A stretch of DNA of 64,000 nt, from the NCBI RefSeq assembly GCF_001562055.1, contig NZ_LLWE01000025.1, positions 372,001 to 436,000 of the forward strand, read 5' to 3'. This DNA comes from Polycladidibacter stylochi. GTDB taxonomy: Bacteria; Pseudomonadota; Alphaproteobacteria; Rhizobiales; Stappiaceae. A program made the translations under genes and the position numbers. Below are positions 11,833 to 23,746 of this stretch, piece by piece. How positions within the stretch are numbered: position 1 is the stretch's first letter; every line of letters begins with the position of its first letter. Below the pieces are notes generated by a model, which did no database searches, was not told where the DNA came from, and was given only the letters and a program-made list of their open reading frames with translations.

Positions 11833-11870
11833 GGCGACCAGCCAATATATTTTCAAGATTAATATGAAAA

Positions 11871-11904
11871 AAAAACCCCGCGACGATAAAGTCGCGGGGT
11901 TTTT
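11871..11904. terminator. Bidirectional terminator between carA and merR
   Basis: AAAAACCCCGCGAC (11871-11884) and GTCGCGGGGTTTTT (11891-11904) form a perfect 14-bp stem with loop GATAAA, giving a GC hairpin plus T-run on both strands. It ends the MerR gene from the right and carA from the left. Confidence 0.9.
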
Positions 11905-11923
11905 AACCAAAAAGCAAATAAAA

Positions 11924-12400
11924 TTAGCTCTCTGCCTCAATCATAACACCCAGAGCAGACATGACGCCGTTGACTTCCGCAATCTGTTCTTTGAGTGCAA
12001 TCTCTTGCTCTGAGAGCAGTTTTTCTTGTGATACGCAGATTTCTTGAAGCTCAACCAGCTGATCTTTACGCGGGCTATTGCTCTCCACAAGCTTAATGAT
12101 GCGCCGCACTTCCGCAAGTGTCAGACCAATCTTCTTCGCCTGTAAAATTACTTTCATGCGGCCAATGTCTTTAGGACGATAAAAGCGGCGGGCCCCACGC
12201 CGTACAGGGTTTAGAAGACCTTTTTCTTCATAAAAGCGCAATGTACGCAATGTAACATTGAAAAGCTCTGACATTTCGGAGATTGCCAGCAGTTGGCTCT
12301 CACCATCCCCTTCAGATATTGGTCCAGCGATATCAGGAATTAGCTCTATACTGTTTGGAATTGTATTCATTACCATTTGCCCGGTGGTTCTCTGTTTCAT
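11924..12400 (-). CDS. MerR family transcriptional regulator
   Basis: A 158-residue regulator. An N-terminal tail of about 40 residues is followed by the MerR winged HTH (ISEMSELFNVTLRTLRFYEE, then RRFYRPKDIGRMKVILQAK) and a coiled dimerisation helix at 105-150. No cysteine cluster typical of metal sensors is visible in the C-terminal helix, so the signal is unknown. Starts at 12400 and 12373 (MVMNT) are both possible, and neither has a strong binding site. It is the only minus-strand gene between carA and carB, and its target is not evident from the context. Confidence 0.82.
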   Translation of the reverse strand: MKQRTTGQMVMNTIPNSIELIPDIAGPISEGDGESQLLAISEMSELFNVTLRTLRFYEEKGLLNPVRRGARRFYRPKDIGRMKVILQAKKIGLTLAEVRRIIKLVESNSPRKDQLVELQEICVSQEKLLSEQEIALKEQIAEVNGVMSALGVMIEAES

Positions 12401-21261: not shown

Positions 21262-22227
21262 ATGAGCACCAAGCATTCCAAAATGCTCATCATTGGTTCC
21301 GGTCCAGCCGGTTATACAGCAGCCATATATGGCGCACGAGCTATGTTGGAACCAACACTGGTCACAGGCATACAAACTGGTGGTCAATTGACCATAACCA
21401 CCGAGGTTGAAAATTACCCAGGTTTTGCCGATCCCATACAGGGACCTTGGCTGGTTGAAGAAATGCGCAAGCAGGCCGAAAATGTTGGCACCAAAATCGA
21501 ATACGATACAATCGTTAATGCTGATCTAAACGCAAGGCCAATCAAACTCACCGGAGACAGCGGCACCACCTATACCGCCGACACGCTCGTCATAGCGACA
21601 GGTGCCCAGGCAAAGTGGCTTGGTCTACCCTCCGAAGAAAAATACCAGTCCGGCGGCGTCTCAGCATGCGCCACATGCGATGGATTTTTCTATCGCGGCA
21701 AGAAAGTGGTTGTGGTCGGAGGCGGCAATTCCGCAGTCGAGGAAGCACTGTATCTAGCCAATATTGCTGAGAAAGTAACTCTCGTTCACCGCCGCGACAG
21801 TTTGCGTGCGGAAAAGATCCTACAAGACCGCCTTTTCAACAATGAAAAGGTTGAGATCCTCTGGAACCAAGCTATTGAGGAAATAACTGGTACGGAAGAA
21901 CCGGCATTTGTGACAGGCGTTAGATTACGCGACACACAAACCAATGCCGTCTCCACACTTGAGACAGACGGTGTCTTTGTTGCCATTGGTCACTCTCCAG
22001 CTGTTGCTTTATTCAAAGACCAGTTGGAAATGACCGAAACGGGTTATATCTGGACTAAGCCAGATTCCACGCAAACTTCCATAGCAGGAGTTTACGCGGC
22101 TGGCGATGTAACAGATGACAAATATCGTCAAGCGGTAACAGCGGCGGGAATGGGCTGCATGGCCGCTTTAGAAGCAGAGCGGCATTTGGCAGAGCAGGAA
22201 GCTGCCACGCCACAGGCTGCACAATAA
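21262..22227 (+). CDS. trxB: Thioredoxin reductase TrxB
   Basis: A 321-residue flavoprotein that transfers electrons from NADPH to thioredoxin. The FAD-binding motif [16 protein letters not shown] is at 12-27, the redox pair is C136-A-T-C139, and the NADPH-binding motif [14 protein letters not shown] follows. The C-terminal FAD motif is [24 protein letters not shown] precedes the ATG. It stands 43 bp upstream of the lsrB/vtlR regulator, a pairing conserved in Hyphomicrobiales that links redox state with that regulator. Confidence 0.97.
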
Positions 22228-22270
22228 ACACAAGACTGTGATAGGGAGCCGCCCATTCGGCGGAATCAAA

Positions 22271-23167
22271 ATGGATTGGGATAAGCTGAGAATTTTTCAT
22301 GCAGCGGCGCAAGCGGGAAGCTTCACCCATGCAGGTGAAGCACTCAATATGAGCCAATCTGCTGTAAGCCGCCAAGTCAGTGCCCTAGAGGCCGACTTGG
22401 GTGTCTCCCTATTTCACCGTCACGCCCGTGGCTTGATCCCCACAGAGCAGGGCGAACTACTTTATCGCACTTCGCGTGAAGTCCTGATGAAGTTGGAATC
22501 CGTACAAACGCGGCTCACAGATAGTAAGGAAAAGCCTTCAGGCTTACTACGTGTAACAACCACAGTCGGATTGGGATCAACGTGGCTCACCTCGCGTGTT
22601 AATGAATTCGTCGACTTATACCCAGACATGCGCCTTGAAATTATCTGTATGGATAATGAGCTGGATTTAGGCATGCGTCAGGCTGATGTAGCCATCAGAC
22701 TACGTCAACCAACGCAACCAGACTTGATCCAGCGTAAGCTATTCACAGTGCATTTTCATGTTTATGCAGTTCCCTCATACTTGGAGCGCTTCGGCACCCC
22801 AAACTCGGCAGCGGATCTTGATAACCATCGCATTGTTACCATGGGGGATGTTACACCGTCATATTTACGCGGAATGAACTGGCTGGAAACCACAGGTCTA
22901 CCACCGGGCGAAACCCGAGACATCACATTAAAGGTCAACAACCTTGTGGGTATTAAACGTGCTGTCCAAAAGGGCATTGGGTTGGCAATCCTGCCCGATT
23001 ACATGGTCGAAGCCGATGCAGGTATGGTTAAAATCATGAGTACGCGGCGCGAAGACCTTCCCTCCTATGACACTTATTATGTTTACCCCTCAGAGCTGAA
23101 AAACACCGCAAGGGTGACAGCTTTTAGAGACTTCCTCGTTTCGTATGCTGAGCGTTGGACACACTAA
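22271..23167 (+). CDS. lsrB: LysR-type regulator LsrB/VtlR
   Basis: A 298-residue LysR-type regulator. The DNA-binding HTH is at 1-60 (MDWDKLRIFHAAAQAGSFTH, then SQSAVSRQVSALEADLGVSL), followed by a periplasmic-binding-protein-like effector domain. Sequence and position behind trxB match LsrB of Sinorhizobium and Agrobacterium, called VtlR in Brucella, which governs redox, envelope and host-interaction genes and activates abcR small RNAs. The start at 22271 has GGCGGAA 7 bases upstream. Only one cysteine (C126) is visible, so thiol switching by several cysteines, reported for relatives, may not apply. An AbcR-like sRNA follows. Confidence 0.9.
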   Translation: MDWDKLRIFHAAAQAGSFTHAGEALNMSQSAVSRQVSALEADLGVSLFHRHARGLIPTEQGELLYRTSREVLMKLESVQTRLTDSKEKPSGLLRVTTTVGLGSTWLTSRVNEFVDLYPDMRLEIICMDNELDLGMRQADVAIRLRQPTQPDLIQRKLFTVHFHVYAVPSYLERFGTPNSAADLDNHRIVTMGDVTPSYLRGMNWLETTGLPPGETRDITLKVNNLVGIKRAVQKGIGLAILPDYMVEADAGMVKIMSTRREDLPSYDTYYVYPSELKNTARVTAFRDFLVSYAERWTH

Positions 23168-23182
23168 ACTTTATACGAGGAG

Positions 23183-23219
23183 ACTTAAGAGCACTCTGCG
23201 CTCCAGATTGCTCTTAAGT
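23183..23219 (+). terminator. Hairpin after lsrB
   Basis: ACTTAAGAGCA and TGCTCTTAAGT form a perfect 11-bp stem around a 15-nt loop, within 60 bp of the lsrB stop. It is followed only by TAAAACC, so termination may be weak. Confidence 0.6.
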
Positions 23220-23544
23220 AAAACCGATTCGCGCATCCTCCCAATATAAAACACCTCAAGACAAAAGTAGATAATTGCGTCTTACAACCCTTTGGGAACG
23301 GGAGTTGCCAAATCGAGAGAGATTCGCTTTTCCTTGTTCTATAGGAAAAACTAAAATTGGCATGAACTGCTTTTGCAGAGGAAAGAAAGGGAACCTAAAT
23401 TTTATACACAGCCCCTCAAAAGGCTGCTACAGCACTTTTAGCTTAACCGTAAAATATATTTTTATAAATAATTACAGCCAGTTACTACAAATTATCTGCG
23501 ACGTCATGACCTATCGAAAACTAGCTCACCAAGATATACAGTAA
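23220..23544. other. Gap between lsrB and the sRNA locus
   Basis: AT-rich DNA. An open frame at 23275-23544 lacks a binding site and any recognisable domain, so I treat it as non-coding. No second small RNA with the same motifs is apparent here. Confidence 0.5.
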
Positions 23545-23605
23545 TTGCATATCTGCAATGCAATATTGTTCATTGAAGATCAATAAATGCACTGCATATA
23601 TGCAG
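23545..23605 (+). promoter_or_regulatory. Promoter with two dyads for the AbcR-like sRNA
   Basis: A promoter can be read: -35 TTGAAG (23573-23578), 18-bp spacer, -10 TATATG (23597-23602). Two palindromes share its region: TTGCATATCTGCAA (23545-23558), just upstream of the -35, and the perfect CTGCATATATGCAG (23592-23605) over the -10. They share the TGCATAT core. Paired sites upstream of and across the promoter are the usual arrangement for a LysR-type activator, and LsrB/VtlR, encoded next door, is the likely candidate. This is inference. Confidence 0.6.
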
Positions 23606-23608
23606 CAG

Positions 23609-23746
23609 CTGTTAGCTGATGTTCATCACAACTCTCCTCCCTGTGACGTTCAATTTCAGCTAGCTGTTCCCCTCTGGAAGGTGATTGCACCAAAACTTTG
23701 GTGTTAAATCAAACTAACTGCCGGGCCTTTGGCCCGGCTTTTTTTT
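23609..23746 (+). ncRNA. abcR: AbcR-type (alpha-r15) trans-acting small RNA
   Basis: The predicted transcript, about 138 nt, starts some 7 nt after the -10 and ends in a strong intrinsic terminator. It contains two CU-rich single-stranded anti-Shine-Dalgarno motifs, CTCTCCTCCC (about 23632-23641) and CTGTTCCCCTCTGG (about 23664-23677), as in AbcR sRNAs that repress ABC-transporter mRNAs with Hfq. A small CACCAA/TTGGTG hairpin lies before the terminator. In Agrobacterium abcR1/abcR2 sit beside the lsrB/vtlR gene, so the position supports the assignment. Only one copy is evident. The exact 5' end is inferred. Confidence 0.72.
23720..23746 (+). terminator. Rho-independent terminator of the sRNA
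   Basis: GCCGGGCC (23720-23727) and GGCCCGGC (23731-23738) form an 8-bp GC stem with a TTT loop, followed by eight T. It is one of the strongest terminators in the window and lies over 500 bp from any supported coding gene, which itself argues for a small RNA. Confidence 0.93.

Follow-up and report, generated by a model that had tools for sequence, protein, structure and literature searches.

The window analysed here is a 64,000-nt stretch of a Stappiaceae genome, close to Polycladidibacter/Pseudovibrio, that is 99.98% complete in 43 contigs. Along its forward strand the genes trxB and lsrB are followed by a predicted AbcR-type small RNA (sRNA) and, on the opposite strand, by msrP (Table 1); in A. 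tumefaciens trxB likewise precedes vtlR (PMC7486931, seen in excerpt). No open reading frame of at least 80 aa overlaps the sRNA, and an 89-aa frame with a TTG start stops at 23544. A 16-nt inverted repeat, 94% complementary and without a T-run, lies right behind the lsrB stop at 23183-23219.

Table 1. Features of the trxB-lsrB-abcR locus, with the one further open frame discussed in the text
Feature	Position	Strand	Basis or remark
trxB, thioredoxin reductase	21262..22227	+	TIGR01292, 408 bits, above cut-off
lsrB/vtlR orthologue, LysR-type	22271..23167	+	HTH_1 and LysR_substrate
LsrB/VtlR box GCATATCTGCAATGC	23547..23561	+	about -62 to -48 from start 23609; predicted from consensus, position and conservation
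-35 element (TTG core)	23573..23578	+	TTG (23573-23575) invariant in 34/34
Conserved promoter block TGCACTGCATATATGCA (includes the -10)	23588..23604	+	TGCACYGCATATA near-invariant, n=34
AbcR-type sRNA	23609..23746	+	138 nt, predicted; 5' end 23606-23609
aSD1 CTCCTCCC	23634-23641	+	wholly inside predicted loop of 5' hairpin; equals S. meliloti aSD1 (PMC8844928, excerpt)
aSD2 TTCCCCTC	23667-23674	+	between hairpins 1 and 2; equals S. meliloti aSD2 (PMC8844928, excerpt)
Intrinsic terminator and U-tail	23720..23746	+	terminator search, covariation
72-aa frame, strict LsrB box upstream	L189 1501-1853 (G000:C12:238640-238992)

The regulator reads as 298 aa from an ATG at 22271, the open reading frame being listed from a GTG at 22238. 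Full-length similarity and synteny with trxB identify it as LsrB/VtlR: its best PDB match is 9hh1 (407 bits, residues 1-297), which we infer to be the A. tumefaciens LsrB of PMC11975290. The closest LysR match, at 87% in the best segment, comes from Pseudovibrio hongkongensis, now listed as Polycladidibacter (Stappiaceae). The near-full-length alignment, the upstream neighbour and a conserved box are all shared with the known LsrB/VtlR proteins; however, two residues differ. PMC11975290 (excerpt) reports that A. tumefaciens, S. meliloti and B. abortus all have C144 and C273, and 9hh1 has cysteine at both aligned sites, whereas the protein here carries V140 and V271 and has C126 as its sole cysteine. 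It thus lacks the thiol redox pair, and sensing by C144-C273 is therefore impossible in this LsrB; redox sensing via the single C126 is conceivable from the sequence. Among 81 aligned homologues, 12 have a cysteine at the first site and 7 at the second, and no member of the Stappiaceae-like set has one at either.

Promoter and LsrB box

The region upstream of the sRNA was compared across 34 promoters—that of the window and those of the 33 out of 36 Stappiaceae-like named loci with a match to R1, a covariance model described below (L065, L070 and L075, without such a match, were left out; L052 is titled Rhodobacterales bacterium). The initial annotation had described two TGCATAT-core palindromes here and taken both for LsrB dyads. 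Both are present, and a repeat search lists them as a direct repeat and within an inverted repeat pair; the upstream dyad (TTGCATATCTGCAA, 23545-23558, 14 nt) is imperfect, and the second (CTGCATATATGCAG, 23592-23605), perfect in the window, is a palindrome in only 2/34 promoters.

The upstream dyad fits the published box. The first 13 bases of the box (23547-23559, about -62 to -50) agree exactly with the LsrB/VtlR consensus GCAT-N3-TG-N3-T (PMC8844928 and PMC7486931, excerpts), and the S. meliloti LsrB box is placed at -61 to -49 (PMC8844928, excerpt). The box GCATANCWGNNNTGC is invariant in 34/34 promoters; where W is T (14/34) it contains the published consensus, and where W is A it is one base off. 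Beyond this set, 17 of 27 other promoters hold the exact consensus, 19 hold GCA-N9-TGC and 22 hold either, the same two motifs occurring in 0.2% and 0.7% of mononucleotide shuffles. Because the short consensus alone is common (8 in the window against 14.5 expected), the argument for the box rests on position and conservation.

As an equal LsrB site the second dyad is rejected, being the -10 region and no conserved palindrome. It matches the longer box with two mismatches, which is not beyond chance: at up to three mismatches the longer box occurs twice in the window against 1.26 expected, and 39 of 100 shuffles have as many. The short LsrB consensus is matched by the second dyad on the minus strand, so a second LsrB contact at this -10 half-site is possible. 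The promoter first proposed, TTGAAG and TATATG 18 bp apart, is present in its letters but is not listed by a sigma-70 consensus scan; only TTG and GCATATA (23594-23600, one position at 97%) are conserved in the 34 promoters, and the -10 hence probably lies a base or two further upstream, as CATATA or ATATAT.

These elements also bear on whether a stress sigma factor might drive the sRNA outside LsrB control, as in S. meliloti AbcR2, where RpoH1 uses CTTGAA-N16-CCTATAT (PMC8844928, excerpt). The window has ATTGAA and locus L043 has CTTGAA, in keeping with such a promoter, but the other compared promoters carry CTTGTT, CTTGCA or similar at -35, and the -10 is GCATATA. Moreover, PMC8844928 found no further conserved motif before abcR2, whereas the LsrB box stands before 34/34 of the sRNAs compared here; we regard stress-sigma control as improbable.

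The RNA and its family

The alpha-r15 family (ar15, RF02345), to which AbcR1 and AbcR2 belong, is found in most Rhizobiaceae and Brucellaceae (PMC8844928). An Rfam scan placed no family on the sRNA stretch at the gathering cut-off; RF02345 scores 23.6 bits there (E 0.024) against a cut-off of 40, so the sRNA is no formal member. This match is one of 19 weak Rfam matches in the stretch searched, two unrelated families having slightly lower E-values; it is the best ar15 match in its own genome (runner-up 21.2 bits, elsewhere), and with a threshold of E 10 ar15 also matches weakly in 12/14 control genomes. The low score is probably due to Rfam's choice of members.

The R1 model, built with the window sequence included, gives the sRNA 120.2 bits in its own genome, the next match having 23.4. 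Since R1 contains the window, a second model, R2, was built from 37 rows (27 from the Stappiaceae set and 10 others) with the window and P. hongkongensis left out; its consensus keeps 21 pairs, the outer part of hairpin 1 being dropped. R2 scores the sRNA at 107.6 bits; E-values of both models are rough. An R2 side match at 11869-11957 (20.3 bits) was set aside as a terminator behind a MerR-like frame, judged by eye. Among 20 loci run through Rfam, ar15 exceeds its cut-off in seven, at the same position as the R1 match, and is absent at cut-off from the other 13, including four Stappiaceae-set loci. Six ar15-positive loci are among the 37 rows of R2 (L082, L090, L091, L093, L094 and L101), and it is through this joint model that the sRNA is homologous to accepted ar15 members. 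The initial annotation had offered an Rfam covariance scan as a refuting test; that test points the wrong way here, giving no match at the gathering cut-off although homology is clear.

The central claim of that annotation, an AbcR-type sRNA beside lsrB/vtlR, is supported by predicted structure, covariation, synteny—lsrB adjoins the sRNA—both aSD 8-mers and the R2 score. The sRNA shares with AbcR1/AbcR2 of Sinorhizobium, Agrobacterium and Brucella the aSD1 motif CUCCUCCC in the 5' loop followed by aSD2 UUCCCCUC, the hairpins with a terminal intrinsic terminator, the trxB-lsrB neighbourhood and an LsrB box at about -61. In contrast to their tandem pair there is one copy here; the second hairpin is longer, appearing as an insert in the ar15 alignment, the score falls below the Rfam cut-off, and the sRNA is followed by msrP, on the opposite strand, where theirs are followed by arsR (PMC7486931 and PMC8844928, excerpts).

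The Rfam result would also suit a different aSD-bearing sRNA family that had converged on CU-rich loops; aSD motifs are known in other sRNAs, such as NfeR1 (PMC8844928). NfeR1, however, is reported to carry three aSD motifs, all identical (PMC8844928), and the position of the locus, the order of its elements, both exact 8-mers and the joint alignment with six ar15-positive loci make convergence still less probable than stress-sigma control.

The predicted fold consists of three hairpins, the last being the intrinsic terminator, plus an extra mini-hairpin at aSD2; at -49.5 kcal/mol (z -6.0) it is equalled in stability by 0/200 shuffles. The two CU-rich anti-Shine-Dalgarno motifs first noted, CTCCTCCC and TTCCCCTC, are both there, and so is the terminator: at 23720-23738 a stem of 8 G-C pairs encloses a 3-nt loop, and 8 T follow. 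In an alignment of 34 sRNAs the last 7 bases of aSD1 and the whole of aSD2 are invariant; fold prediction half-covers aSD2 with a weak mini-hairpin of 4 pairs. The same 34 sequences show two-sided changes in 13/30 pairs, 3/8 in the terminator, and 97.8% of cells paired, against 92.1% in shuffles; the observed paired percentage, two-sided counts and covariation score are each reached by 0/500 shuffles, and sliding the pairing partners drops paired cells to 26-45%. Further standard pair types in this alignment are not above shuffles, 498/500 being as high.

At the DNA level a match was found in 42/61 genomes, including 37/37 of the same family, some of these matches being short. If the element were not an RNA gene, it could be a distal lsrB terminator or intergenic DNA that happens to be rich in hairpins; the compensatory changes, the invariant promoter and box and these family-wide matches make this extremely improbable.

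Copy number and spread

Searches of the genome with the DNA, ar15 and R1 give one clear sRNA copy and no tandem AbcR1/AbcR2 pair. Three candidate second copies were rejected: a hairpin at L124 has no aSD motifs, L125 lies at the end of a ribosomal-protein-like gene and L010 precedes an rpsB-like start (both genes named by eye). The single copy proposed in the initial annotation is supported but is nothing unusual: 56 of the 58 matched lsrB loci show a single plus-strand R1 match in a 3-kb flank, a count in which R1 could miss diverged second copies. Two Chelatococcus species (L110 4053-4433 and L112 4045-4426) have two alike tandem copies with a box-like site before each, which may be a duplication separate from that in Rhizobiaceae. 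In Rhizobiales bacterium IMCC20636 (L092 4031-4788) three weak tandem AbcR-like matches stand behind lsrB, with TCTCCTCCC kept and CCTCCCC in place of TTCCCCTC.

Across the order, R1 matches 111/297 genomes (E 0.001). Within the named lsrB loci, the best 80 of 168, R1 matches downstream of lsrB on the same strand at 58 (60 plus-strand matches) and is without a match at 22, some of which have weak R2 matches; two weak minus-strand R1 matches lie beside the terminator at L059 and L064. Since the sRNA is 2.3-2.6 kb from lsrB at three Stappiaceae-set loci (L067, L068 and L077), it may elsewhere fall outside the flank examined. At L065 and L075, where R1 has no match, lsrB is followed by an opposite-strand frame of ~580 aa. 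Our literature search, with most subscription papers outside its scope, returned no paper joining AbcR1 with Pseudovibrio or AbcR with Stappiaceae.

Probable regulon, candidate targets and proposed circuit

A genome scan finds the strict box four times, against none for the reversed control. Two of these boxes are inside open frames and one belongs to abcR; the fourth, alone with that of abcR in lying outside a long frame, is 134 bp upstream of a frame of 72 aa. A second homologue of this frame lies ~8 kb away (C12:247040). Homologues are found in 14/41 genomes and, at E 1e-6, are absent in 12/15 other genomes of the genus; a box with up to two mismatches is upstream at 14/16 homologue loci, some of them near-duplicates, against 16% of random stretches, and the strict box at 2/16. 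The 72-aa protein has one Pfam match, below cut-off, and none in NCBIfam or in plasmids; a DUF1127-like identity was dropped, being backed by no search. The VtlR regulon of A. tumefaciens comprises abcR1, atu1667, which encodes a small protein, and vrsA, the first two being activated by VtlR (PMC7486931, excerpt). In both species a box stands before the sRNA and before a small-protein gene; here these two are the only strict boxes that long frames do not cover. A small LsrB regulon is probable from this pattern.

Candidate mRNA targets were sought as complements of the two motifs before start codons, where all counts are small. The aSD2 complement precedes an ATG at 15 sites (reversed control 12), five with frames of at least 60 aa: three ABC substrate-binding proteins, MoaE and a polyprenyl synthase. 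For aSD1, a motif close to the ordinary Shine-Dalgarno, there are 14 sites against 2 reversed, one being the sRNA's own complement; the nine with frames of at least 60 aa comprise one ABC ATPase, one TRAP DctM and seven others. The control motif AAGGAGGA gives 11 sites (reversed 7), six with frames (L196 left out), which include no nutrient transporter and two proteins without a family. Duplex energies were compared among sites preselected for complementarity. At the aSD2 complement that precedes an oppA-like gene, the exact GAGGGGAA recurs in 0/16 other loci (L230 is partial, and the other starts were picked automatically), and the L165 protein has no match at E 1e-60 in 30 other genomes. The predicted targets, few in number, are suggestive of a lean towards uptake proteins.

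Very probably, then, the locus holds a single-copy AbcR-type trans-acting sRNA with its own promoter, activated by the adjacent LsrB/VtlR and blocking translation of uptake and metabolic mRNAs. LsrB/VtlR would bind 23547-23561 and activate transcription of the sRNA; aSD1 and aSD2 would pair with the ribosome-binding sites of these mRNAs, and the sRNA, probably with Hfq, would block their translation. Transcription, LsrB binding and activation, the role of Hfq and target repression are carried over from published relatives; the analysis itself shows the sequence and copy number of the locus, its synteny, the conservation of the box, and the predicted structure with its covariation. This is a known regulator-sRNA gene pair in a less studied bacterial branch, and not a new kind of system.

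A more speculative extension, which we think rather unlikely, is that LsrB-AbcR in Stappiaceae controls nutrient use and has no C144-C273 thiol switch: LsrB would sense some other signal, activate abcR from the box at -60 and, through the conserved inverted half-site over the -10, also limit this activation. If true, redox sensing would be a later addition, in a Rhizobiaceae-like branch, to an older one-sRNA nutrient switch.

The LsrB-AbcR module, described for rhizobia, Agrobacterium and Brucella, is here extended to marine Stappiaceae, in which the sRNA escapes the Rfam cut-off. Single copies seem to be common from our comparison, and the regulator and sRNA seem to be linked even in lineages whose LsrB does not have the conserved cysteines—what LsrB senses could consequently be tested by comparing branches.
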